Below the pieces are notes generated by a model. That model did no database searches. It worked only from the letters and a program-made list of their open reading frames with translations, and was not told the DNA's origin. The position numbers and the translations under genes were made by a program. From the NCBI GenBank assembly GCA_945861875.1, contig CAMAWC010000002.1, positions 25,766 to 89,765 on the forward strand: a stretch of DNA of 64,000 nt, given 5' to 3'. The DNA is from Bordetella parapertussis. Lineage in GTDB: Bacteria > Pseudomonadota > Gammaproteobacteria > Burkholderiales > SG8-39. This document shows, in pieces, positions 47,999 through 64,000 of this stretch; positions within the stretch are counted from its first letter, which is position 1; each line of letters begins with the position of its first letter.

Positions 47999-48077
47999 GT
48001 CATTCCGGGCAAAGCGAGGAATCTGCTTTTCAGTGGCCGTAAAAAGCAGGTTCTTCGGCCTACGGCCTCAGAATGAC
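47999..48077. repeat. 79-bp palindromic element, copy B (5' side of ubiA), inverted relative to copy A
   Basis: Reverse complement aligns gaplessly to 47003-47081 with 14 mismatches out of 79 by eye. Confidence 0.85.
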
Positions 48078-48097
48078 AATGCTGGGAGGCCTTATTT

Positions 48098-48232
48098 AAG
48101 GAAGCTCTGATTAAGTCCATAAATCGTCATTCCCGCGAAAGCGGGAATCCATTTTGACTCAATGAATCCACGCTTTAGGTCAAGGTGGATTCCCGCTTTC
48201 GCGGGAATGACGGACTTAATCAGAGCTTCCTT
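48098..48232. repeat. About 135-bp imperfect palindrome with two ATTCCCGC-tetraloop-GCGGGAAT hairpins
   Basis: Outer arms AAGGAAGCTCTGATTAAGTCC / GGACTTAATCAGAGCTTCCTT; inner hairpins 48129-48148 (GAAA loop) and 48189-48208 (TTTC loop). Confidence 0.9.
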
Positions 48233-48280
48233 AATTCCGAAACGCAGTGGATTTTAGCCTGATACAGGCTCAGGCCCGCT

Positions 48281-50413
48281 TCAGGCTTTAAGGTAGTCGT
48301 GCCGTCCGCCGAGCCAGCGCTCGAGGTGCCGCGCCGCCTGCTGCGGATGATTTTGCAGCAGGCGGTCCGCCGCCTCGCGCGCGTCCACGAGCAAATCAGC
48401 GTCGGTCGCGAGGTCGGCAAAACGCAGCAGGGGCGCGCCGCTCTGGCGCAAGCCAAGCATCTCGCCAGGCCCGCGCAACTCCAGGTCGCGCTGGGCGATG
48501 ACAAAGCCGTCGCTGCTTTCAAAAATAATCTTCAGCCTTGCCCGCGCGCCCTCGGACAAGGGGTTCTGGTAGAGCAGGATGCAGGCGCTGTCATGGGCGC
48601 CGCGCCCGACGCGGCCGCGCAACTGATGCAGTTGCGACAGGCCGAAGCGCTCGGCGTGCTCGATCACCATCAACGAGGCGTTGGGCACGTCGACGCCGAC
48701 CTCGATCACCGTGGTGGCAACCAGCAGGTTCACTTCGCCGGCGACAAACGCGCGCATCACCGCCGCCTTTTCCGCCGGCGGCAGGCGGCCGTGCACCAGC
48801 CCCACATGCAGGCCGGGCAGGTCGGCGGTGAGCTTGAAGTGCGTGTCAATCGCCGTCTGCAATTGCAAGGTTTCCGATTCCTCGATCAGGGGGCATACCC
48901 AATAGACCTGGCGACCGCCCTCGCAGGCCTCGCGCACGCGCGCGAGCACCTCGTCACGGCGCGCCTCGCCGATGAGCTTGGTGATCACCGGCCGGCGCCC
49001 CGGCGGCAACTCGTCGACCACCGAGACATCAAGGTCGGCGTAATAGCTCATCGACAGCGTGCGCGGGATGGGTGTGGCGCTCATCATCAACTGGTGCGGC
49101 CACAGGCCGGCGAGCGAATTACGGCCTTTTTTTCGCAACGCGAGGCGCTGGCCAACCCCGAAACGGTGCTGCTCGTCGATGATGGCGAGGCCCAGCCGGT
49201 CAAACTCGACATGGTCCTGAAAGAGGGCGTGGGTGCCCACGGCAACCGCCGCCCCGCCGCTCGCAATCGCCGCCGTCGCCGCATCGCGCTCGCGCTTTTT
49301 CAGGCTGCCGGTGAGCCAGGTCACCGCCACACCCAGCGGCGCCAGCCACTCGGAAAACTTGCGAAAATTCTGCTCGGCGAGAATCTCCGTCGGCGCCATC
49401 ACCGCCGCCTGCCAGCCCGATTCGACCGCACGCAACACCGCCAGCGCCGCCACCACCGTCTTGCCGCTGCCCACGTCTCCCTGCAACAGGCGGTTCATCG
49501 GGTGCGGTTCGGCCAGATCATGCTCGATTTCGCCCCAGCAGCGCAGCTGCGCCGCGGTCAGCTTGAAGGGCAGTCCTTGTTGCAAGCCGCCGGTGAGCGC
49601 GCCCGGCTGCGCCAGGCGCGGCGCGTTGCGCGCGCGGCGCTCGCGATAGTGCAGGCGCATCGACAACTGCTGCGCCAGCAATTCATCGAACTTCATGCGC
49701 CGCCAGGCGCGATGGTTGCGCGCCGACAAGCCCTCGGGCGCCATGCCCGGCTGCGGGTGATGCAGCAGGGCCAGCGCCGCGGCGAACGAGGGCAGGTCGA
49801 GCGGCGCGGTCACCTCTTCGGGCAGCGTATCCGATAAGTCGCTGCGTTCGAGCTCATGGACAATCAACTTGCGCAAGGTGTACTGGCCGAGGCCGGCGGT
49901 GGTCGGGTAGACCGGCGTCAGCGCATCGGACAGCGCGGCACCGGCGCGCACCACGGTAAAACGCGGATGAATCATTTCGCCGCCAAAAAAACCCGCGCGC
50001 GCTTCACCGAATACGCGTACCCGCGCCCCGGGTGCGAGCACTTTTTGCTGGCTGGGATAAAAATTCATGAAGCGCAGCCACATCTCGCCGCTAGCGTCGG
50101 CGATTTTCACCACCAGTTGCCGGCGCGGCCGGTAGGCGACGGTGCAATCGACGACATTGCCCTCGATCTGTACGGGAACACCGTCGAGCACCTCGGAAAT
50201 CGGCGTCAGGCGGGTCTCGTCCTCGTAGCGCAAGGGCAGGTGCAGCGCGAGGTCGTGGCTGCGCGTGAGGCCCAGCTTGAGCAGTTTTTGCACCATCACC
50301 GGGCTGAAGCCGGGAAAGCGCGCGGCAAGCGCGGCTTTGTTCGCCTGCGCGGCCTCGCCCGTGGCGACCCGGGCGGGCTTTGCCGCCGGCTTTGCGCGTT
50401 TTTTGGGCGTCAC
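48281..50413 (-). CDS. recG: ATP-dependent DNA helicase RecG
   Basis: LLQGDVGSGKTVVAALAVL, AIIDEQHRFGVGQR, QLRGRVGRGAHDSACILLY. Confidence 0.97.
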   Translation of the reverse strand: MTPKKRAKPAAKPARVATGEAAQANKAALAARFPGFSPVMVQKLLKLGLTRSHDLALHLPLRYEDETRLTPISEVLDGVPVQIEGNVVDCTVAYRPRRQLVVKIADASGEMWLRFMNFYPSQQKVLAPGARVRVFGEARAGFFGGEMIHPRFTVVRAGAALSDALTPVYPTTAGLGQYTLRKLIVHELERSDLSDTLPEEVTAPLDLPSFAAALALLHHPQPGMAPEGLSARNHRAWRRMKFDELLAQQLSMRLHYRERRARNAPRLAQPGALTGGLQQGLPFKLTAAQLRCWGEIEHDLAEPHPMNRLLQGDVGSGKTVVAALAVLRAVESGWQAAVMAPTEILAEQNFRKFSEWLAPLGVAVTWLTGSLKKRERDAATAAIASGGAAVAVGTHALFQDHVEFDRLGLAIIDEQHRFGVGQRLALRKKGRNSLAGLWPHQLMMSATPIPRTLSMSYYADLDVSVVDELPPGRRPVITKLIGEARRDEVLARVREACEGGRQVYWVCPLIEESETLQLQTAIDTHFKLTADLPGLHVGLVHGRLPPAEKAAVMRAFVAGEVNLLVATTVIEVGVDVPNASLMVIEHAERFGLSQLHQLRGRVGRGAHDSACILLYQNPLSEGARARLKIIFESSDGFVIAQRDLELRGPGEMLGLRQSGAPLLRFADLATDADLLVDAREAADRLLQNHPQQAARHLERWLGGRHDYLKA

Positions 50414-50469
50414 TGTAGGGGTATCACTGGGTTGATGTCACGATCTTGACGTCACGATATCGACGTCAA

Positions 50470-50853
50470 TCAGGAGGCAAACACCAGCACCGCATCCGCC
50501 TCGACCAGCGCGCCGCGCGGCAGCGCCGCCACCCCCACCGCGGCGCGCGCCGGATAAGGCTGCGCCACATACTGCGCCATGATTTCGTTGACCTTGGCGA
50601 AATGCGCGAGATCGGTAAGGTATACGGTCAGCTTGACCGCATCGGCGAGCGAACCACCGGAGGCTGCGGCCACCGCGGCCAGGTTACGAAACACCTGGTG
50701 GATTTGCGCCTCGACACCGTCGACCAACTGCATGGTTTTCGGATCGAGCGCGATCTGGCCGGACAGGTAGACCGTGGTGCCGCAGCGTATCGCCTGCGAA
50801 TAGGTGCCGATGGCGGCAGGGGCGTCAGGCGTGTTGATGGCTTGCTTGGACAT
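50470..50853 (-). CDS. RidA family enamine/imine deaminase
   Basis: [34 protein letters not shown]...[26 protein letters not shown]. Confidence 0.94.
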
Positions 50854-50976
50854 GCGGGCATCCCTTTTGCGGTGGCAGTTGTCGTTGGCTTGTCGTTGGC
50901 TTCGGGTGGGCGCGCGCCCTGCCCTGGACTATAATTGCGCCCAGAGCGCTTCAGTCGCAATTCGCGCCTATCTTAA

Positions 50977-51321
50977 ATGACCTCCCCCGCCCCCGCCATA
51001 CTGGCAAGCTTTATCAAGCTCATCGGCACCCCCAGGGACGGTTCCCTGCTGCGCTTTTCGCTCGGCAACGAATACCTCAAGGCGGGCGACGCGGCGCAGG
51101 CCGTGGTGCATCTGCGCGAGGCGGTGGCCAAAGACCCGGACTACTCGGCCGCCTGGAAACTGCTTGGCAAGGCCCTTGCTGACAGCGGCGATGCGCCCGG
51201 CGCGCTCGCCGCCTACCGCAGCGGCATTACCGCCGCAGAAAAAAAGGGCGACAAACAGGCGGCAAGGGAAATGACCGTGTTCGCACGGCGCCTGGCCGCA
51301 CAACTTGGCGGGGTCGACTGA
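50977..51321 (+). CDS. Small TPR-like protein
   Basis: LLRFSLGNEYLKAGDAAQAVVHLREAVAKDPDYSAAWKLLGKAL. Confidence 0.85.
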   Translation: MTSPAPAILASFIKLIGTPRDGSLLRFSLGNEYLKAGDAAQAVVHLREAVAKDPDYSAAWKLLGKALADSGDAPGALAAYRSGITAAEKKGDKQAAREMTVFARRLAAQLGGVD

Positions 51322-51323
51322 GC

Positions 51324-53285
51324 ATGGCCCGCGGCACGCTACACGACAAGCTTTTCGGTGCGCCGCTTGACCCGATGAACAAAAAAACGCGCCACGGCAT
51401 CGCCCTGGTGGCCTTTATTGCGTGGGTGGGCCTTGGCGCGGACGGCATTTCGTCTTCCTGTTACGGCCCCGAGGAGGCATTCCGCGCCCTTGGCGAACAC
51501 ACCCACCTCGGGCTGTATCTCGCACTGGCGACGGCGGTGACGGTATTCATCATCGCCCTCGCCTACAACCAGGTGATCGAGTTGTTTCCCACCGGCGGCG
51601 GCGGTTACCGCGTTGCGACCAAGCTGCTCGGGCCCTACGCCGGCGTCATCTCCGGCGCGGCGCTGATCCTCGATTACGTGCTGACCATTTCCATTTCCAT
51701 CGCCAGCGGCGTCGATGCCATGTTCAGCCTGCTGCCGCTTGGCTTCCAGGCCTACAAACTCGGCACGGAGATCATGCTGATCGTCGTGCTGACCGCACTC
51801 AACCTGCGCGGCATGAAGGAAGTCATCACCATCCTGCTGCCGATTTTTCTCGGCTTTGTCATCACCCATGCGCTGCTCATCGTCTACGGCACGCTCGCCC
51901 ACGTCGACATGATTCCGGCCCTTATCCCGGCAACGCTGGCCGAAACGTCAAGGTTGTCGAGCGAACTGGGCTGGGCGCATGTGGCCGCGCTGATGCTGCT
52001 CGCCTACTCGCAGGGCGGCGGCACCTACACCGGCCTTGAGGCGGTTTCGAACAACGTCAACGTTCTCGCCGAACCGCGGGTGCAGACCGGCAAGGCCACC
52101 ATGCTCTACATGGCGTTGTCCCTCGCCTTTACCGCCGGCGGCATCATCCTGCTGTACCTGTTGTGGGACGCGAAACCGGTCGAGGGACAGACGCTCAATG
52201 CCGTGGTGTTCGGATCCATCATCCGCAGCCTCGGCTGGGAGAGCGAACTGATGATCCAGGGCGCGATCATCCTGGTGCTGGCGCTCGAAGCCGGGCTGCT
52301 GTTTGTCGCCGCCAACACCGGTTTTCTGGGCGGACCGGCGGTGCTCTCGAACATGGCCGCCGACTCCTGGGTGCCGCACAAGTTCCGCTACCTGTCGACG
52401 CGCCTGGTGACCGAAAACGGCATCCTGGTGATGGGCCTCGCCGGCCTTGCCATCCTGCTGGTGACCGGCGGCAGCGTGTCGCTGCTGGTGATCCTCTACA
52501 GCGTCAGCGTGTTCCTCACCTTCGCCATTTCGCTGTTCGGCCTGTGCGCCTACTGGTGGCGCAGCCGCGCCAAACAAAAGAAATGGCTCGGGCGCCTGCT
52601 GCTCTCGGCCTCGGGCTTTGTCGTGTGCGCCGGCATCCTCGCCATGCTGCTGTCGGAAAAATTCTTCGACGGCGGCTGGATCGCCGCCCTGATCATCGCC
52701 GCCATCGTCGCGCTGTGCATCGCCATTCGCGGTCATTACTTCAAGACCAAGCAGCAACTGCGCGCGCTGGATGCCACCTTCGAAGCGGTCGCCTTCGGCA
52801 GCGTGACCAACCCGCCGGCGCCCGACCCGGCCAAGCCCACCGCGGTATTCCTGGTCGGCTCCAGCCGCGGCGGCGGGCTGCACGCCCTGCTCTGGGTGCA
52901 GCGCATGTTCCCCGGACATTTTTTCAATTTCATATTCATCAACGCGCGCACCGTCGACTCACAGGCCTACGGCGGCGGCGAGGAAATGGACGTGATGAAG
53001 GTCGAGGCCAATTCCTCGCTGCGCTATTTCGACAACTTCTGCAACAGCAAGGGCTGGGCGGCCAAGTCCTACCTCGCCTTTGGCACCGACCCGATCGACG
53101 ACTTCTCCAGTCTGTGCGAAAAAGTCCACGCAGACTTCCCCAACAGCATCTTTTTCACCAGCAAGCTGATTTTCGCGCGCGACAACTGGTTCACCCGCCA
53201 GTTGCATAACGAGGCGGCGCTGGTATTGCAACGACGCCTGCACCTGCACGGCCTGCAAATGATCATCCTGCCGATGAAACTGTGA
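51324..53285 (+). CDS. APC-superfamily permease (KimA-like, with C-terminal cytosolic domain)
   Basis: WVGLGADGISSSCYGPEEAFRALGEH...LFPTGGGGYRVATKLLGPYAGVISGAALILDYVLTISISIASGVDA. Confidence 0.85.
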   Translation: MARGTLHDKLFGAPLDPMNKKTRHGIALVAFIAWVGLGADGISSSCYGPEEAFRALGEHTHLGLYLALATAVTVFIIALAYNQVIELFPTGGGGYRVATKLLGPYAGVISGAALILDYVLTISISIASGVDAMFSLLPLGFQAYKLGTEIMLIVVLTALNLRGMKEVITILLPIFLGFVITHALLIVYGTLAHVDMIPALIPATLAETSRLSSELGWAHVAALMLLAYSQGGGTYTGLEAVSNNVNVLAEPRVQTGKATMLYMALSLAFTAGGIILLYLLWDAKPVEGQTLNAVVFGSIIRSLGWESELMIQGAIILVLALEAGLLFVAANTGFLGGPAVLSNMAADSWVPHKFRYLSTRLVTENGILVMGLAGLAILLVTGGSVSLLVILYSVSVFLTFAISLFGLCAYWWRSRAKQKKWLGRLLLSASGFVVCAGILAMLLSEKFFDGGWIAALIIAAIVALCIAIRGHYFKTKQQLRALDATFEAVAFGSVTNPPAPDPAKPTAVFLVGSSRGGGLHALLWVQRMFPGHFFNFIFINARTVDSQAYGGGEEMDVMKVEANSSLRYFDNFCNSKGWAAKSYLAFGTDPIDDFSSLCEKVHADFPNSIFFTSKLIFARDNWFTRQLHNEAALVLQRRLHLHGLQMIILPMKL

Positions 53286-53337
53286 CCGGAACGACGGCCG
53301 GCGCCGCGCTATAGCCAGGGTCAAAATGAATTCCCGC

Positions 53338-53421
53338 TTGGCCGTTCCTCGAAACTTCTTCTCGCTGCGCGAGACTCGTTTGGCCGTTCCTCGAAACTTC
53401 GTCTCGCTGCGCGAGACTCGT
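53338..53421 (-). repeat. Two tandem 42-bp units (hairpin-tip cassette), locus 1
   Basis: 53338-53379 and 53380-53421; one substitution between units (CTTCTTCTCG vs CTTCGTCTCG); flanked by ATTCCCGC (53330-53337) and TTTC-ACGGGGAT (53422-53433). Confidence 0.97.
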
Positions 53422-53622
53422 TTTCACGGGGATGACGACGCTGCGGTGCATGGGTGTTGCGTTGGGGCACGGGCTTTGCAGCGCCATCGCGGCCGAGTCG
53501 TGGGTTGGCAATCGGGTTGGAAATCGCCGGATGGGTGGCCGGATTCGTGATAAAAGAGCGGGTGTTCGCGTTGCTTTGGCTGAGGCGTGCCACAGCGCAC
53601 CCCGGCATGCCGGCTCAAGCCA

Positions 53623-53713
53623 TGCGCATCGCGCATCGGCGCATCGGCGCATCGGCGCATCGGCGCACCGGCGCACCGGCACACTGGCACACTGGCGCAC
53701 CGGCACACCGGCC
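53623..53713. repeat. 9-bp-period tandem repeat (CGGCGCATC/CGGCACACC), about 10 degenerate units
   Basis: catgcgcatcgcgcatcggcgcatcggcgcatcggcgcatcggcgcaccggcgcaccggcacactggcacactggcgcaccggcacaccgg. Confidence 0.92.
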
Positions 53714-53788
53714 TGCCGTGGCTTTGCCGGTTCGGCCGGGCGTGGTGCGCAGGCTGAGGCGGGGGCACCGATATGATGAAAAATGGGT

Positions 53789-53794
53789 TATAAT
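53789..53794 (+). promoter_or_regulatory. Candidate -10 element (TATAAT) upstream of signalling operon
   Basis: Exact TATAAT in a short AT-rich island 28 nt before the predicted start; no convincing -35. Confidence 0.35.
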
Positions 53795-53821
53795 GCGAAA
53801 AATGATTAATAAATAAGGAAT

Positions 53822-54472
53822 GTGGCTTTCCCTCACTCAAATATGGCTGGCAATCCGATTCAAAAGTCTTTTTGTACCACGCGAGAAGCGGCGCGGATGC
53901 TTGGCATCTCGCTCAGTACGGCCCAGCTATGGGTGGATTCGGGCTTGCTACAGGGATGGAAGACCGATGGGGGGCATCGCCGCATTGAGCGCGCCTCCAT
54001 AGAACGACTGCTGGCCGGTTCGCCTGCCGCGACCCCATCGGCCGCCAGGGCGGACAGGCATGCATCCGTTGCGACGGGTCGGCGCCCTTTCCGTATTCTG
54101 GTGGTCGATGACCAGGAGGACTTGCTCAAGCTTTATCGTATCAACCTGGGCAAGTGGCCGCTGCAACCCAGGGTCATCACCGCCTCGAGCGCCTTCGAGG
54201 CGATGATTAAGATCGTCAGCGAAAAGCCGGATATGATGATTGCAGACCTGTTCATGCCCGATGTTGACGGAATCCAGATGTTAAGAACCATCCGCGCCGA
54301 ACCGCAACACAAAGACTTGCCGATCGTGGTGGCCACCGGCTTGTCGCCTTTTGATATCGCAGCGCATGGCGATCTGCCTGCGGGCATACCGATATTCCAG
54401 AAACCGGTTCCATTCGAGAAACTGCGGCAACTGGCCGGCGAATTGGCCTTGCGCAAGTGGCGGGAACTTTAA
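53822..54472 (+). CDS. Inverted-architecture response regulator: N-terminal MerR/excisionase-type HTH, C-terminal REC
   Basis: FCTTREAARMLGISLSTAQLWVDSGLLQGWKTDGGHRRIERASIERLL then ILVVDDQEDLLKLYRINLG...MMIADLFMPDVDGIQML...FQKPVPFEKL. Confidence 0.92.
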   Translation: MAFPHSNMAGNPIQKSFCTTREAARMLGISLSTAQLWVDSGLLQGWKTDGGHRRIERASIERLLAGSPAATPSAARADRHASVATGRRPFRILVVDDQEDLLKLYRINLGKWPLQPRVITASSAFEAMIKIVSEKPDMMIADLFMPDVDGIQMLRTIRAEPQHKDLPIVVATGLSPFDIAAHGDLPAGIPIFQKPVPFEKLRQLAGELALRKWREL

Positions 54473-54487
54473 TAAAAATTCGAATCC

Positions 54488-54850
54488 ATGAAAAAAATCC
54501 TTATCGTCGACGATCATTCCGACATTCGCAAACTGATCCGCATCACGATCGGCAGCGCCTATGAGGTTCTTGAGGCTGAAGACGGCGTGACGGCCCTGAA
54601 CATCGTCCGCAGTCAGCAGCCGAACCTGGTCGTGCTCGATATCATGATGCCCGGCGACCTGGATGGCTTGCAAGTGCTCGACGCAATCCGCGCCGATCCG
54701 GCCCTGAGGCACATCAAGGTGATCATCGTTTCGGCCCGGGGGCAGGCGCAGGATTACAAAACGGGCATTGAGCGGGGCGCAAACGGCTATCTCATCAAGC
54801 CCTTCAGTCCGATTGATCTTGTCAACAGCATCGAAGAATTCCTCAAGTGA
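54488..54850 (+). CDS. Single-domain CheY-like response regulator
   Basis: MKKILIVDDHSDIRKLIRITIGSAYEVLEAEDGVTAL...VVLDIMMPGDLDGLQVL...GYLIKPFSPIDL. Confidence 0.95.
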   Translation: MKKILIVDDHSDIRKLIRITIGSAYEVLEAEDGVTALNIVRSQQPNLVVLDIMMPGDLDGLQVLDAIRADPALRHIKVIIVSARGQAQDYKTGIERGANGYLIKPFSPIDLVNSIEEFLK

Positions 54851-56304
54851 TTCCCGAAAATAGGGCAAGGCGCGCATACGAAGGTGAAGCGCGCCTGCCC
54901 GGGGCCTCGCGGGACGCGGCTCTGCATGACCAGCTATTCCGCTACGCCGAAGATATTCAGGTTCTGCTCGACAGTAACAACGAGCTCACCCGGCGCCATC
55001 GCGCACTTCGCGAATCCGGTGAAAGCGCAATGCAAGGTCAGGCCGCGCTGGAAGGGCTGATTCAGTCGACCAAAGACATATACCTGCTGACCGACGGCGC
55101 CGGCATCATTTTACAGTGCAACGCGGCGGCAACCACGTTCGCGCCGGCGCTGAAAATTTTGGGCAGTTCCCTCGCCGAGCTGGTCGCAGCGTCCCATTTG
55201 GCCGCGTATGCGCGCTTGCTCGATGAACTCGGACGGGGCGCCGAAGCATCCCCGCGGGGGCTGGAACTTTGCCTGAAAAAAAGCGCTCTGCCGGAGGGCG
55301 GCGATGTGCGCATCGTTGAGGTCAATGCAATCCCGGTCAGGGCGGAGGGCGACTTGCGCGCCATTCACTGGCTGATTCGCGATGTGACCCACATACGCGA
55401 AGTCGAATACGATTCGAAAATTTTCTCCCTGGTGCTGGGCAGCTCCGTCGAAGGCGTCTTGATCACCGACTGCGCCGGTGATATCCTTGCCGTAAACGCG
55501 GCATTTACGCGAATCACCGGCTATAGCGCCGACGAAGTGATCGGGCGCAACCCGCGCCTTCTGTCATCCGGGCTCCATGACCGCAGTTTCTATGAAAAAA
55601 TGTGGGGCTCGATGCGCGCCGAGGGGATGTGGCAGGGCCAAATCATCGACCGCAGGAAAAACGGCGAGCTCTACACCGCATGGTTCACAATGACCGCAGT
55701 GCCGGACAGTGAGGGCAAGTTTCTCAGCTACATCGCTGTTTTCGCCGATCTTACGCGCCTGCTGGAAGCCGAAAACCTCCTGTCCCACATGACCCACCAC
55801 GATGCGCTGACCCGGCTCCCCAACCGCCAATTGCTGCAGGAGCGCTTGCAGCAAATGATCAAGCTCGCCAGGCACCGCGGCGAGGCTTTCGCGCTGCTGT
55901 TGGTCGATCTTGACCGCCTCAGGCAGGCCTACGCCAGCTTCGGTCACGCCGCGGGTGATTTGTTGATGCAGGAAGTCGCCGGTCGCCTGTCCGCATCGAT
56001 TGGCGAGGTCGATACCCTCGCCCGCTTCCCTGGCGACAGGTTTGTGATTCTTGCGCCGGGTTCGAGCTCTGACGCGGACATCAGTCTTGTCGCAGAAAAG
56101 CTCCTTGCCGCAATTGCGCGGCCGCTGCTGATCGAGGGACACTCCCCTGGCATCGGCGCCAACATCGGCTGTGTGCGTTACCCGGAACATGGCGAGGATG
56201 TGGAGGCGTTGCTCGAGCACGCGGATGTCGCGTTGTACCAGGCCAAGCAGCGCGGCGCCAATACGCGCGCGATTTACCGCACCGACGGCCAAAGTCCCGC
56301 ATGA
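54847..56304 (+). CDS. PAS-PAS-GGDEF-domain protein with degenerate active site
   Basis: [55 protein letters not shown] fold [18 protein letters not shown]...but [15 protein letters not shown] in place of GGDEF; GTGA overlap with upstream gene. Confidence 0.9.
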
Positions 56305-56332
56305 GGCGCAATACCCCCCTGTCTGCGTTCGG

Positions 56333-59300
56333 ATGAAAAAACCCGGCAGTGCCGATGCCGCCGGGCAGATGGACCCCGGGCTTGCAGGCGATTCCCGGGG
56401 AGGCTTCCGCTTCAGCCTGAGCCAATGGGTCGAGCATTGGGCATCGAAACGGCTGCTCGGGATACTGGCCGTCACCTTGCTTGCGTTCACTGGCATAGGC
56501 TGGCTCGCCTATGGCTATATCTCGAACCACGTCATCGAGCGCGAGATGGTCGGCTTGCATGCGATCTCAGAGGTCAGGACGAACATTGTGGCGCGATGGA
56601 TGAAGGAACGCAGCGGCGATCTGGAAATCCTGCTCCGTTCGCCCGTGATGCAACACCTTGTGCGCGACATGCAACGAAACGCCGCAGGCCAGGCGAGCAC
56701 CGAGTTGCGCGGGTGGCTGGTTGAGATGCGAAAAATCCACGGCTACCACAGCGTCGAGCTCCGGACACTGGACGGACAGCGCCTGATGATGGTCGGTACG
56801 GAGGGTATGAACGGCGCGGATGTGCTGCAAAAACTCAAACTGCAGAACTTCGACGGCAAAGCCCATTTTTTTGAAAGCACCGTCGCATCATCGGAGGAGA
56901 ATTATTTCTTCGGTTATGCCGGACTGGTGAAGCCGCTCGATGGCGCCGATACGGGCCCAAGCCTCGCGATCATCATGTCGAGCAGCATTTACCAAAATGA
57001 ATTTTTCACCGAACAGGTGACGTGGCCGGGCGAAGCAAGTTCAGGGAAAATCATTTTTGTGCGGACCGCGCCGGAAGGCTTGAAGACTGTCATAAGGATG
57101 ACGCTATCAGCCAGCGAACAGATTTCTTCCTTTGGCGGCATCGCGCCCGAGCTTATACGCCTGGGACAAGTGAAAATCGACGGTTCGAATTTTCAAGGCC
57201 CGGACGGGCAGGGGAGAGAGGTCGTGGGAGCGGTTCATACCGTCCCGCCGTTTCCCTGGGCTGTTGTCGCCCAGGTCGAAAGGCGTGAGATCCTTGAAAA
57301 AGTCGGCGAGATTGCGCTTGCATCGCTACTGGCCACCCTCGCGGGTGCGCTCATTTGCGCATTCTTGCTGTCCCTTATGTTCAACCACGTAAGGCATAGC
57401 GAGCGGCTGCTTAAAAAGAACAACCTCAAACTGACCGAACTCAGGGATGAGGCAGAAACCGCATCGCGCGCCACCAACGAATTCGTCGCCAATACCAGCC
57501 ACGAGATTCGCACACCGATCAACGCCATCGTCGGCCTTTCCTACCTCATGTTGCAGCGGCCGGAGCAGGACGCGTGGAACCGGGAAAAACTCTCGCATAT
57601 CCAGGACGCGTCGCAACACCTGCTGTCCATCATTAACAACATCCTGGACATCGCACGCATCAGATCGGGGAAATTCAGGATTGAAGAGGTCGATTTTCTG
57701 CTTGAGGAGGTGCTGCTCCACAAGGTCTTCAACCTGGTCTCGGACGAGGTAAAACACAAGGATTTGGAAATCATCTCAGATATCGACGCCCGCCTTACCG
57801 GCCCCCTGCGCGGCGACCCGTTGCGGCTGGCGCAGTTAATCCTTAATTTTGTCGGCAATGCGGTGAAGTTCACCCAGATCGGCCACATTATCGTTCGCGC
57901 GCGCCTGGTCGAGGACATACCGTCCGGCCTGCTGGTCCGTTTCGAGGTCAACGATACCGGCATCGGGCTCACGCCGGAGGAGGCGCAACGGGTGTTCGAG
58001 CCCTTTGAACAGGGCGACGGATCCACCACACGCAAATACGGCGGTTCGGGCCTGGGCCTTGCCATTAACCGCCACATCGCAGCGCTCATGGGCGGGGAGG
58101 TCGGTGTGGCGAGCATCCCGGGCGTGGGCAGCAGTTTCTGGGCCACCCTGCGCCTGCAAAAAGGCGCGGCCGGCCTGCCCGGCCGGCCACAAGGCAGACC
58201 GAACTTGCAAGGTTGCCGCGCCCTGGTGGTCGATGACAAGCCCGAAGCGCGCCTGGTCCTGGCGACAATGCTCGGGAGCCTCGGTTTGCGCACCGAAGAG
58301 GCCGACTCGGGCGAAGCCGCGCTTGAGAAGATCGAAAAAGCCAGCCGCGACATGGACCCGTTTGGCGTCCTGCTGCTCGATTGGCGCATGCCGGGGCTCA
58401 GCGGGATACAGACCGCCCAGCGCCTTGGCCAAATGAAACTCGCGCAGCACCCGATCACCCTGATTGTTACCGCCTATGACGATCCAGCCCTGCCGCAACA
58501 GGCCAAACTCGAAGGCATCCGGGAGGTGCTGTCCAAGCCGGTCACAATGTCCACCCTGCACGATGCGCTCGTGCGCCTGACGAACAACGACGCCGCCGCC
58601 GTAGTGCCGCCCGGACAGGCGTCGCTGGCGAAGCTGACCCTGCGTTCGAGCCACCGCGGGGCAAGCGTACTGCTGGTGGAAGACAACCCGGTCAACAGCG
58701 AGATCATGCTCGAATTGCTGTCGGACTTCGATTTCAACATCGAGGTCGCGGGCAACGGCCAATTGGCGCTCGACATGGCCATGCGCAAAACCTATGACCT
58801 GGTCTTGATGGACATGCAAATGCCCGTAATGGACGGCCTTGAGGCGACACGCCGGATCAGGGCGTTGCCGGCATGGAAAACCATTCCCATACTCGCCATG
58901 ACGGCAAACGCGTTTGCCGAGGACCGCCAAGCGTGCATCAGCGCGGGTATGGACGAACACCTGGCCAAGCCGGTGGAGCCCGAAGTCCTTTACAGCGCTT
59001 TGCTGAAGTGGCTCCCGGCCACGGCGGTTGACGCGCATTTTCCGGTTGCCGGCGCGCCCATGCAGGCCGCGGGGTCGCCGGGCGCGCTTGCGCAGGAGGG
59101 GGAATATCTTGACCTCGATACGCTGGCGAACAGCACCAATCACAAATCCGCGGTGATGGTGCGCGTTTTGCAGCAGATGGTGGAACACCACGCGGACGAC
59201 TCCGCGCGCCTGGCAACCCTGATCGACGCACAAGACTACACCGGCGCGTTTCGTATCGCGCATACGCTCAAGGGCATGGGCGGACAGGTCGGCGCCGTAA

Positions 59301-59698
59301 AGCTGCAGCAGGCGGCCCATGACGCCGAACAGTTCTGGCGGCGGCACGAGCCCTGCCCGCAGGAAATGTCCGGGCAGCTGGATTTTTTTCTTCTCGCGAC
59401 ACTCGCTGCGGCACGCCGTCATCTTGAGGTCCTGGCAGGGGTCAGTCCGGCCGCACCCGGGCGGGGCGGGGTCAATCCTTACGCGCTGGCCCGGCTGCTT
59501 TATTCCCAGCTGGAAGAGGCGGATGGCGCGGCGATACAAACGACCGAAGAACTCAGGGCGGCACTGCCAGACCAATTTCCCGCGGCGCGGCGCGCGGATG
59601 TGGACCAGATGAGCGCCTGCGTGGCGCGTTTCGATTTTGACGCGGCAATGGAAAAACTTCGGCCTGTGATGGCAGAACTGGAAGAGACACACCTATGA
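56333..59698 (+). CDS. Hybrid sensor histidine kinase: sensor-HisKA-HATPase-REC-REC-Hpt
   Basis: [49 protein letters not shown], two REC domains, Hpt [19 protein letters not shown] at 56333. Confidence 0.94.
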
Positions 59699-60852
59699 GC
59701 TACTTGTTGATCGCCGACAAACCCGACGTGCTGATCCTCGATGACCAGCCCGAGAACCTGCACATCCTCACCGACCTGCTGGCAAACGATTTCCGGGTGC
59801 ACCCGTTTTCGGATGACTCGAAATTTCTCGCCTACATCGCGTCGGGCAAACCCGCTGACCTGATCCTGCTCGATGTGATCATGCCGAACCGTGATGGTTA
59901 TGAGATCTGCGCCATCTTGCGAAAAAACCGCGATTTGGAACATGTGCCCATCGTTTTTCTTACCTCGCTGACCAGCGCTGAAGACGAGCGCAAGGGGCTC
60001 GACCTGGGTGCCAACGACTACATCGGCAAACCTTTTTCACCCGGGCTCGTCCTCGCCCGCGCCAAGCATCATGTCGAACTTGGCCGCACATTGCGCATCA
60101 TCGCCGATCAGAACGCCAACCTGGATCACAAGGTGCGCGAGCGCACGGCGGAGCTGGAGCAGGCAAATGCCGACTTGAAACGCAAATCGGAGGAGTTGGA
60201 GAGAGCGCAGGACGCCACCATCATCGCATTCTCCAGGCTCGCCGAATCCCGTGACAACGAGACGGGAATGCACCTGCGTCGCACGCAAAATTACGTGCGG
60301 GAGCTCGCCAGCGCCCTGAGCAGGAGCCATCCGCGTTTCAGGCAGCAGCTCGATGATGAGACCATAGAGCTGCTGTACAAGTCGGCTCCGCTTCACGACA
60401 TCGGCAAGGTCGCCATCCCCGATCACATCCTGCTCAAACCGGGCAAGCTCACGGTGGAGGAATTCGAGATCATGAAGACGCACGCGACTTGCGGCAGGGA
60501 CGCCATCGTCGCCGCCGAAAAGGGCGTGGGCGGGAGCAGCTCCTTCCTGCGCTGCGCACACGAGATCGCCTACGGTCACCACGAAAAATGGAATGGCAGC
60601 GGCTACCCGCAGGGCCTCTGCGGTGAGTCCATCCCGCTGTCGGCGCGCATCATGGCGGTGGCGGACGTTTACGACGCCCTGATCTCGACCCGCGTTTACA
60701 AGGCCGGCATGCCGCATGAAAAGGCGGTGGCCATCATCCGCGAGGGCCGGGGCAGCCATTTTGATCCGGATATTTGCGACCAGTTCCTGCTTATCCAGGA
60801 CGAGTTTGCCCGCATTGCGGAGCAATTTAGCGACGAAGCGGTGCTGCCCTGA
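59695..60852 (+). CDS. REC-HD-GYP response regulator (RpfG-like c-di-GMP phosphodiesterase family)
   Basis: [18 protein letters not shown]...; [35 protein letters not shown]. Confidence 0.95.
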
Positions 60853-62879
60853 AACATACGACGCCCCGGATCAAGTCGCAGCTGGTTCTGCTGGCGCTCT
60901 TGTGCCTTGCCATTATCTGGATGGCCACCGGGTATGAGCTTTATCGCAGCCACGCCGACTACACGCACGAAGCGGAGTTGCGAACCTCCGCCCAGGCCCA
61001 GGTGTTCGCGGAGTATTCGCGCTCCACGCTAAAGCGCATCAATGAGTTCATGCTTGACGTGCGCGACCATTGGGACGGTGATTGGCAGAAATTCTCGACG
61101 CTGGTCTTGAAAACAAAGGCGAACATCGACGATCTTACCTTTCAGGTTGCGGTGATCGACAAGGACGGAATCCTTGCGTTCTCCAACCTCGCGCCGACGA
61201 CTGATCGCACGAATTTGAGCGAGCGCGAGCACTTCAAGGTTCATCAGCAAGGCGGCAATGCGGACAACCTGTTCGTCAGCAGGCCGCTCCTGGGCAAGGT
61301 TTCCGGGAAGTGGTCGATCCAGCTCACCAGGCCGATCTTCCAGAACGGCCGGTTCAACGGGGTGATGGTGGTGTCGGTAAGTCCGGACCAGTTCGCCGGA
61401 TTTGCAAAAAAATTGCTTAGCGGCAAAGATTCGGTTGCCACGGTGATCCGCAATACGGGGGAGGTGATGGCGCGCTATCCGGCCCTCCAATCGGACCTGG
61501 GCCTGCTGATCCCCAGAGACCGGCCTTTCCTGATGGAGAACGGACCAGAGGCGGGCAGTTTTCGACGGATCGGGGCTGTCGATGGCCAGGACCGGATTTA
61601 CGGTTACTACACGCTGCGCGAATACGGCATGACTTTTGCGTTGGGGGAGGCGCTGAGCGATGTGCTCGCCCCATACCAGGCCCGCCAAAACAATGTTTTG
61701 GGGGCGGCGGCGGCGATGAGCATTCTGCTGGCATGCCTGTTCCTCATACTCTTTCGCGCGCTTGCGGCGCGCGAGACGGCGAGTGCGCAACTGAACGCGA
61801 TCTTTGAACTCAGCCCGGACGGTTTTGTCTCCTTCGACGGCCGCCGGTGCGTGATCTATGCGAGTCCGGCTTTCCTGCGCCTGACCGGCCTGGCGTGGCC
61901 GCAGATCGCAGGTTTGGATGACGCCGCGTTCTCAGCCAAACTGGCGCTCGTTTGCAGCGCGCAGGGGCGTTTTCCTGGGCTGAGTGCGCTGCGTGAGGCG
62001 CAGGTCGTCCCGGCTGCCGGTGGCGCAGGCCCGCGGCGGCATCTGATCGAAATCGCCGGCGACACCAAATGCGTGCTCCAATGCGCTTTGCGCATTGCCG
62101 ATTCGACGGCAGCGTCGCAGATCCTCTATGTTCGCGATGTCACGCGCGAAACCGAAGTCGATCGCCTCAAGAGCGAATTTGTCTCCTTCGCCGCGCACGA
62201 ATTGCGCACCCCGATGACCACCATCTATGGCTTCGCCGAACTTCTGCTCACTCGCGAGTTTAACGAGGCGGACCGGCGTGATTTTTTGACCACGATCGTA
62301 AGGCAATCCAGGCAGACGGTGTCCATCGTCAATGAGCTGCTCGATCTGGTGCGCATTGATGAGCAGCGCGGCAAAGACTTCATCATTGAAGACCTGGACC
62401 TGCACGCCCTGCTCGCCGAAATACTCAAAGAGTTTCCGGTGCCCGAAGGATACAGTCCGCCCGCACAAGCGGCTGCCACCGGCCCGTTTGGGATTCGCGC
62501 CGACCGCAAGAAACTCGTCCAGGCCTTCAGCAACGTGCTGTCCAACGCCTATAAATACTCCCCCCCGGGCCGCGGCGTGGAGGTCAATCTGGCGCTGCTT
62601 CCGGGCGACGGCGACCTCCCGGTGCGCGCCTGCGTCAGCATCACCGACCACGGCATCGGCATGACGACGCAACAACTTGCGCGCGTCGGCGAGCGGTTTT
62701 ACCGGGTGGATACTTCCGGCAAGGTTCCGGGCACGGGTTTGGGCATAAGCATCGTGAAGGAAATCCTCCATCTACACGGCGGAACAATGCAGATCGAAAG
62801 CCGGATCGGGGTCGGAACCACCGTGGTGCTGTGCATTCCCTGCGCGCCTGCCGCCGCTTCAGGCGGGAGCGGCGGCTAG
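60849..62879 (+). CDS. Cache-PAS sensor histidine kinase
   Basis: Extracytoplasmic Cache-like region, PAS, FVSFAAHELRTPMTTIYGFAELL, GTGLGISIVKEILHLHGGTMQIES. ORF track starts at TTG 60900; in-frame CTG at 60849 (CTGA overlap with previous stop) gives a complete N-terminal TM helix; start uncertain. Confidence 0.88.
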   Translation: MKHTTPRIKSQLVLLALLCLAIIWMATGYELYRSHADYTHEAELRTSAQAQVFAEYSRSTLKRINEFMLDVRDHWDGDWQKFSTLVLKTKANIDDLTFQVAVIDKDGILAFSNLAPTTDRTNLSEREHFKVHQQGGNADNLFVSRPLLGKVSGKWSIQLTRPIFQNGRFNGVMVVSVSPDQFAGFAKKLLSGKDSVATVIRNTGEVMARYPALQSDLGLLIPRDRPFLMENGPEAGSFRRIGAVDGQDRIYGYYTLREYGMTFALGEALSDVLAPYQARQNNVLGAAAAMSILLACLFLILFRALAARETASAQLNAIFELSPDGFVSFDGRRCVIYASPAFLRLTGLAWPQIAGLDDAAFSAKLALVCSAQGRFPGLSALREAQVVPAAGGAGPRRHLIEIAGDTKCVLQCALRIADSTAASQILYVRDVTRETEVDRLKSEFVSFAAHELRTPMTTIYGFAELLLTREFNEADRRDFLTTIVRQSRQTVSIVNELLDLVRIDEQRGKDFIIEDLDLHALLAEILKEFPVPEGYSPPAQAAATGPFGIRADRKKLVQAFSNVLSNAYKYSPPGRGVEVNLALLPGDGDLPVRACVSITDHGIGMTTQQLARVGERFYRVDTSGKVPGTGLGISIVKEILHLHGGTMQIESRIGVGTTVVLCIPCAPAAASGGSGG

Positions 62880-63007
62880 GAACCGCTTGAAAGCGAATGT
62901 TGCAAGCGGCCCGGTTCGGGCTGGCACGGGGAAACCTCAGGCGGACATACCCCTTTGACCGTTTGGCCAGACTGTCGGTGGGGGGGGTATACTCAGCCGG
63001 CAACCCG

Positions 63008-63043
63008 TCAGGACTTCAATCAGGACCTCAATCAGGACTTCAC
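63008..63043. repeat. 12-bp x3 tandem repeat directly upstream of the Csp-like gene
   Basis: tcaggacttcaa / tcaggacctcaa / tcaggacttcac. Confidence 0.9.
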
Positions 63044-63059
63044 CTTGAAAGGAACACAC

Positions 63060-63539
63060 ATGGAACGCAGGGAATGGCTGGGCGGTATCGGCGCACTGGC
63101 GGCGTTGGCGCTGGCCGGCGGCAACGCCAACGCACAAGCTGACAAAGCCGCGGCAAAGGGCAAAGCCCCCGCTGCTGCAGGCGCTCATCAGCACCACGGC
63201 GCATCGGCCGAGGGCGAAGTGTTCATCGATTCGCTGAGCGATTGCATCAACAAGGGTGAGGCCTGCCTGGCGCACTGCCTGATTCTTTTGGGCGACGGCG
63301 ACAAATCGCTTGCCGGATGCGCGCGCAGCGTGAGCGAAACCCTGGCGCTGTGCGAAGGCACGCGCAAACTCGTCGCGCAAGGCTCCAAACGCGCCAAGGA
63401 AATGGCGCGCATCGCCAAGGCCGCCTGCCTCGATTGCGAAAAGGAATGCCGCAAGCACGAGAAAAAACACCTCGAGTGCCGCAACTGCGCCGAGGCCTGC
63501 GCCAGCTGCGCCAAGGAATGCGAGAAATTCGCCGCCTGA
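63060..63539 (+). CDS. Csp-like four-helix-bundle copper storage protein with Tat-like leader
   Basis: MERREWLGGIGALAALALAGGNANAQ leader; 13 Cys in CxxxC-type helices (CLDCEKECRKHEKKHLECRNCAEACASCAKECEKF). Confidence 0.88.
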   Translation: MERREWLGGIGALAALALAGGNANAQADKAAAKGKAPAAAGAHQHHGASAEGEVFIDSLSDCINKGEACLAHCLILLGDGDKSLAGCARSVSETLALCEGTRKLVAQGSKRAKEMARIAKAACLDCEKECRKHEKKHLECRNCAEACASCAKECEKFAA

Positions 63540-63811
63540 CACCGCGACCGCAACATCCGACGCGGCCAATGCCCGGCCTGGCCACCGGCGGCCACGTTGG
63601 CCACAGCACCACCATCAGCAGCACGGCAAACCGGCTGCAAACCCGCGCCAGACGGGCCTTTCCAGCCATCAGCCTAAAAAATGGCGAGGGTCCGAAGGCC
63701 GCGGGGCGTTGCGCTGGCTGCCGGCTGCGAGCCCAGGCAGCCAGCGCGTGCGCCCGCCTTTTACGCAGACGCCCTGCTTCGAGCTAACCCTCACCCGGGT
63801 GGGAATTCCCA

Positions 63812-64000
63812 GGGAAGCTCGGATTAAGTCCAGAAATCGTCATTCCCGCGAAAACGAGTCTCGCGCAGCGAGACGAAGTTTCGAGGAACGGCCAAACGAG
63901 TCTCGCGCAGCGAGACGAAGTTTCGAGGAACGGCCAAGCGGGAATCCATTTTGACTCAATGAATCCACGCTTTAGGTCAAGGTGGATTCCCGCTCCCCGA
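63812..64000. repeat. Palindromic element related to 48098-48232, carrying the 42-bp doublet in its left hairpin (runs to window end)
   Basis: GGGAAGCTCGGATTAAGTCC...ATTCCCGCGAAA-[42]x2-GCGGGAATCCATTTTGACTCAATGAATCCACGCTTTAGGTCAAGGTGGATTCCCGCTCCCCGA. Confidence 0.92.
63854..63937 (+). repeat. Two identical tandem 42-bp units (hairpin-tip cassette), locus 2
   Basis: ACGAGTCTCGCGCAGCGAGACGAAGTTTCGAGGAACGGCCAA twice (63854-63895, 63896-63937). Confidence 0.98.

Follow-up and report, generated by a model that had tools for sequence, protein, structure and literature searches.

Does a 42-bp sequence that is free of stop codons in all six frames serve to enter genes, or is it something else that happens to be open? 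Small bacterial repeats are mostly known as intergenic palindromes only, and their route of movement is often unclear. The window, by which we mean the whole 64,000-nucleotide stretch of DNA analysed here, carries such a unit at 63854-63895, for which a first-pass annotation had proposed insertion into or at the ends of genes, adding 14-residue repeats. The unit reads ACGAGTCTCGCGCAGCGAGACGAAGTTTCGAGGAACGGCCAA and is followed directly on its 3' side by an identical second unit (period 42, 100% match). As that annotation had stated, all six frames lack stops, the junction included, with translations that agree with ours, and the unit contains the 7-bp hairpin GTCTCGC-GCA-GCGAGAC. With the boundaries derived below, the first hairpin module unit (AACGAG...GGCCA, 42 bp) spans 63853-63894 and the second, with the same letters, 63895-63936, both on the plus strand; directly 5' of them on that strand lies a GAA (63850-63852), the presumed target judging from a comparison of module sites. 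The array sits at the very end of the window, which is also the end of its contig (C2:89765). Positions 63060-63539 encode a Cys/His-rich protein with a Tat-like signal that by eye resembles a four-helix copper-storage protein and has no Pfam match.

Simulation of tandemised 42-mers upheld the earlier caveat that the openness could be due to chance. When tandemised, 20% of the window's own 42-mers are open, as are 12% of GC-matched sequences, 5.6% of mononucleotide shuffles and 49% of dinucleotide shuffles; elsewhere in the window, stretches open in all six frames are longer than the unit and reach 324 bp. Since the unit contains only 5 T, few stop triplets are possible, and a palindrome that is stop-free on one strand is stop-free on the other. 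Stop triplets occur in 4 of 25 distinct variant units (16%), compared to 18% of random single substitutions. The palindromic repeat that carries the unit, described below, holds a TGA in one frame, so that unit and carrier together are open in five frames, not six. Although the length of 42 bp is a multiple of three, forms of 32, 33, 36, 42, 44 and 45 bp exist, and outside genes some variants contain stops or have a length that is not a multiple of three. The lack of stops is thus ordinary for DNA of such composition, a by-product of few T and palindromy that lets copies inside genes survive; because the module is not enriched in genes, openness looks permissive rather than purposeful. In contrast, the tandem duplication of the unit is far beyond chance.

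Both arrays in the window are embedded in other repeats. The terminal array occupies the loop of a dRS3-like REP hairpin, ATTCCCGC...GCGGGAAT, at 63842-63945 (plus strand; sequence and fold), which lies in the left part of a MITE (63813-64000, plus strand) with the terminal inverted repeat GGAAGCTCGGATTAAGTCC at 63813-63831, truncated by the contig end. Comparison with other copies gave a plain form of 131 bp for this MITE, exemplified at 48099-48229 on the plus strand, where two REP hairpins (48129-48148 and 48189-48208) have no insert; the first of these, the 20-bp ATTCCCGCGAAAGCGGGAAT, fits the dRS3 pattern ATTCCC-N8-GGGAAT exactly. The identity of the 131-bp element as a MITE is supported by the terminal inverted repeat GGAAGCTCTGATTAAGTCC, with 27 matches per strand (54 in the genome), and by short target duplications among the flanks (CTAG/CTAG, CTTAG/CTTAG, TTAA/TTAA). 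No transposase with ends like those of the 131-bp MITE was identified. Many assembly contigs end about 125-145 bp from the MITE inverted repeat. The second two-unit array lies at 53339-53422 on the minus strand, in a REP hairpin at 53330-53433 (5' arm ATCCCCGT, 3' arm GCGGGAAT); its first unit after GAA is at 53381-53422 and the second, at 53339-53380, differs by one substitution. Adjoining this array, GCGCACCG is present in ten tandem copies at 53631-53712.

The position in a REP loop holds throughout the 4.07-Mb genome, in which we counted 30 units at 26 loci, with two units at four loci. At all 26 the module interrupts the loop of the same palindrome, ATYCCCGCGAA^AGCGGGRAT (the caret marks the insertion point), while 258 REPs matching ATYCCCGC-N(2-6)-GCGGGRAT have no insert. 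The plain loop is four bases long in 50 of 50 distinct sites among the matches listed. The loop reads GAA in 26 of 27 insert-bearing REPs but in only 29 of these 50 plain ones (Fisher p=0.0004, indicative only, as the copies are related and not independent). Each of the two main module subtypes is combined with each of the two REP stem types, which gives four combinations, and several REP tails are represented; module and carrier are therefore not one inherited block. A different 27-bp insert, GCTTGTCCTCGAATGCCTTAATCGGGG, follows GCGAA at the same REP loop position in the other MITE arm at three loci (L141 and L147, which are 158-bp MITE copies, and L011).

Searches of other genomes placed the module in further contexts. 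In G030-G032, G091 and three named MAGs, every copy lies in the same REP loop as in the window's genome. Within the window's own family the exact core is present in 3 of 98 genomes and a relative in 5 of 98; a class-wide scan of 369 genomes detected the module only in the window's own genome. A two-mismatch search of family f24 returned 26 sites in 14 of 120 genomes, and a reversed control pattern gave no sites in the same 120. The module spans at least two families. Some of its f24 copies sit at the 3' shoulder of REPs (GGGAA^TCCAG) with the normal short loop still intact; a different REP has the module in its loop (CCAGCGAA^AGCTGG), and other repeats carry it as well (GTGAA, GAGGGAA). Three f24 genomes share a conserved copy upstream of argB, where 44-bp forms contain a TGA. 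As several of these contexts are themselves repeats, independent f24 insertions are fewer than sites. In G899 and G516 (L163, L166, L180, L182) the module lies at the shoulder of a larger palindrome, CCCGCCCCCGA...CGGCGGGAA, and copies in G492 (L173, L179, L183, L184) have common flanks such as GAGTAGAGTGAGGGAA...ACGGYCAGGGCGCAGACG, which together with the module form a larger composite repeat.

The boundaries are precise. Rejoining the flanks restores the exact REP consensus at both positions (GCGAA^AGCGGG and GGGAA^TCCAG), with nothing added or lost and no target duplication, and the module uses both of the only two GAA sites on that strand of the 27-bp REP. GAA also stands 5' of the module in GTGAA, GAGGGAA, GGCGAA, CCTGAA and AGGAAA contexts, with a few copies following other bases (GGCAA, GCGCA, CTATA); outside REPs, where the empty site is unproven, GAA could belong to the module itself. 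These observations suggest that the unit is probably a copy of a discrete hairpin module, 32-45 bp long and non-autonomous, which enters precisely 3' of GAA and is mostly nested in other repeats. Alternatively, the module might be no more than an extended REP loop, inherited from a longer ancestral form and duplicated along with the REP; the empty REPs would then be deletions between AA microhomologies at the two module ends. A precise AA...AA deletion would indeed leave the plain loop, and the use of one REP loop by every copy in the window's genome, G030-G032, G091 and the three named MAGs is compatible with such an origin. We nevertheless consider it unlikely, given f24 modules at the REP shoulder beside a short loop and at non-REP sites, and the free assortment of module subtype with REP stem and tail.

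The consensus of the module consists of AACRAG, a variable stem-loop and CGAAGTTTCGAGGAACGGCCA, for a total of 32-45 bp; in relatives the apical stem changes with compensation and in length, while the 3' part, CGAAGTTTCGAGGAACGGCCA, is nearly invariant. In the REP loop the fold comprises the outer REP stem, a middle GAAA:TTTC helix, the apical hairpin and a 3' bulge. Over 22 distinct copies, 96.7% of cells are paired, compared to at most 50% in slid control alignments; compensatory cells number 27 versus 6.9 in shuffles, and the covariation score is above that of 500 of 500 shuffles. Both the outer and the apical stems covary across relatives. The GAAA:TTTC helix is 100% paired yet almost invariant, so covariation says neither yes nor no on its pairing, and for short forms outside the REP loop the best single-strand structure is not always the REP-loop fold. 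A search of positions 48000-64000 against Rfam gave sub-threshold chance matches only. A stable, covarying fold, many intergenic copies and a copy conserved 5' of argB across three f24 genomes would also be expected of a regulatory hairpin, either an RNA or a protein-binding site, for example a transcript-stabilising or attenuating stem-loop near gene ends. Such a role appears improbable, as the copies have no common gene neighbourhood and no Rfam match, are nested in MITEs and REPs, and are as patchy as the counts of 3/98 and 5/98 family genomes indicate.

We read the module as a very small, putatively mobile or once-mobile, non-autonomous hairpin repeat. It would enter DNA precisely 3' of GAA in one orientation, with target bases neither doubled nor lost. 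Most copies are nested in other dispersed palindromes, in the loop or at the 3' shoulder of dRS3-like REPs that in some cases belong to a MITE themselves, and the module would spread partly together with these carriers. It may move as single-stranded hairpin DNA, with the enzyme supplied in trans and GAA selected as the target because it pairs with a TTTC inside the module. Arrays could reflect either several successive entries behind one GAA or slippage. A search for the Y1 domain (PF01797) of RAYT and tnpA transposases gave 0 matches in the window's genome (G000, 93% complete), whereas control genomes were positive. In its fullest form, this proposal would rank the module among the smallest known discrete mobile DNA elements, a hairpin that would find GAA by TTTC pairing, move as single-stranded DNA in trans, prey mainly on repeats and sometimes enter genes such as lolD and zipA; entry into such important genes would be harmless because the short forms contain no stops and have lengths divisible by three. 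We hold this fuller version only tentatively and rate it as doubtful. Hairpin-guided insertion can be tested directly here, since the module's ends are precise, two positions in a known type of repeat have exact empty counterparts, the same three bases recur on the module's 5' side and its fold covaries.

Elements that transpose as single strands in the manner of IS200/IS605 insert exactly 3' of a fixed short sequence, produce no duplication and have a hairpin. The module is similar in its short fixed target 5' of the insert, the absence of target duplication (observed in REPs), its hairpin and a possible internal guide, TTTC to GAA; in IS608, base pairing serves to recognise a target of four nucleotides (PMC5934647). 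It differs in being only 32-45 bp long, in having a single hairpin with the putative guide 3' of it, and in that no tnpA was found in the window's genome. The module may work in the manner of this family without being one of its members.

The carrier REP resembles dRS3 and the neisserial intergenic mosaic elements, which have the pattern ATTCCC-N8-GGGAAT (PMC2911385, PMC3898611), in its 20-bp pattern, high copy number, intergenic dispersal and use as an insertion site by other elements (in Neisseria, the Nf1 phage). Unlike dRS3, it receives a 32-45 bp hairpin in its loop or 3' shoulder, belongs to Burkholderiales, outside Neisseria, and in many carriers has ATC...GAT stems. RAYT-mobilised REPs have a GT(A/G)G head before the palindrome (PMC2817692); this head is absent from the carrier REPs, which read CGTCATYCCC. 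A short GC-rich hairpin, high copy number and presumed spread in trans are shared with the REP/RAYT system, while the missing GT(A/G)G head, the absence of Y1 matches in the window's genome and precise entry 3' of GAA are not. A RAYT-type REP was rejected on the grounds of the lacking GTRG head and of RAYT not being found in the window's genome, and an integron attC site was rejected by eye, its core sites being unsuitable. Pneumococcal BOX elements vary in boxB number (PMC3049150), and the Correia element has 107- and 155-bp forms (PMC2229807). Like these, the repeat described here is a composite whose internal module can be present or absent (in BOX it occurs in tandem); unlike them, its module also occurs outside the carrier.

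The module was not found described in the literature searched, which covered the unit's DNA and peptides, REP-derived peptides and the REP sequence; six-frame openness itself is ordinary. Plasmid and phage collections had no match to the REP-borne array. With the 36-bp form as query, plasmids gave only chance-level matches in Rhizobium and Halobaculum (E 0.02-0.8), and plasmid tblastn with the unit's peptide gave none. In IMG/VR a 22-mer had no match and an 18-mer one partial match.

The proposal of insertion into genes stood in part. The unit acts as a discrete insert, and relatives have in-frame copies within or at the start of genes, but the 26 loci of the window's own genome all fall outside credible genes. 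Enrichment of in-gene copies was not seen, and the two window ORFs that show the tandem 14-residue repeat (63709-63954 and 53321-53608) are without coding support. ORFs spanning copies in the window's genome have no domain, or have one downstream of the likely start. TctC (L023) is the only long spanning ORF with a domain, and there the element precedes the domain, upstream of the likely start, as it likewise does before an amidase in a relative (L069). The element lies outside each of the 19 flanking ORFs with Pfam matches in the window's genome, one of these matches being below the cut-off.

Three in-frame gene copies were found, all in f24: in lolD (G370), zipA (G908) and a gene for an RNB-family exoribonuclease (G486). 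Each is 36 bp long, a length divisible by three, and free of stops; between them the three copies are read in two different frames. In ZipA, GERENEAEGRSFEERPMQF lies in the linker between the N-terminal membrane segment (identified by eye) and ZipA_C; in the RNB-family protein, VKTRPKAEVSRDGQSN follows the RNB domain. These copies could suggest that the unit is selected as a translatable peptide cassette adding 12-14 residue repeats to proteins, as the first-pass annotation had implied and as Rickettsia palindromic elements and enterobacterial RU elements do, but this is very improbable with 0 of 26 own-genome loci in a credible gene, openness common by chance, stops in 16% of variant types against 18% of random substitutions, TGA-containing 44-bp forms upstream of argB and two different frames in genes. 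Rickettsia palindromic elements and the enterobacterial RU/ERIC repeats are palindromic, have open frames and occur in frame in genes (PMC2229807, PMC2759123). The module shares in-frame gene copies with the Rickettsia elements (in three f24 genomes, with none in the window's genome), but at 32-45 bp it is about a third of the size of their 105-146 bp palindrome, and its gene copies are rare and so far only in f24. With two frames in use, and with other copies having such lengths as 32 or 44 bp that would shift a frame, the gene copies are more easily explained by harmless insertions having survived than by a coding role. Each of the three is a natural experiment on the tolerance of an important protein for a very small repeat insertion.

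The G370 LolD begins MEIENRK-NEAEGRSFEERP-TGNVISCR, in which the module separates the start codon from the conserved VISCR. This start codon shares bases with the lolC stop, as it does in relatives; an internal GTG start may be used instead. At the module position, lolD of relatives has other short sequences. More generally, the f24 LolD N-terminus from ATG to VISCR (L091-L119) is hypervariable and contains short repeats such as CAGGATTCAGGA, as if it were a tolerant landing place for small repeats.
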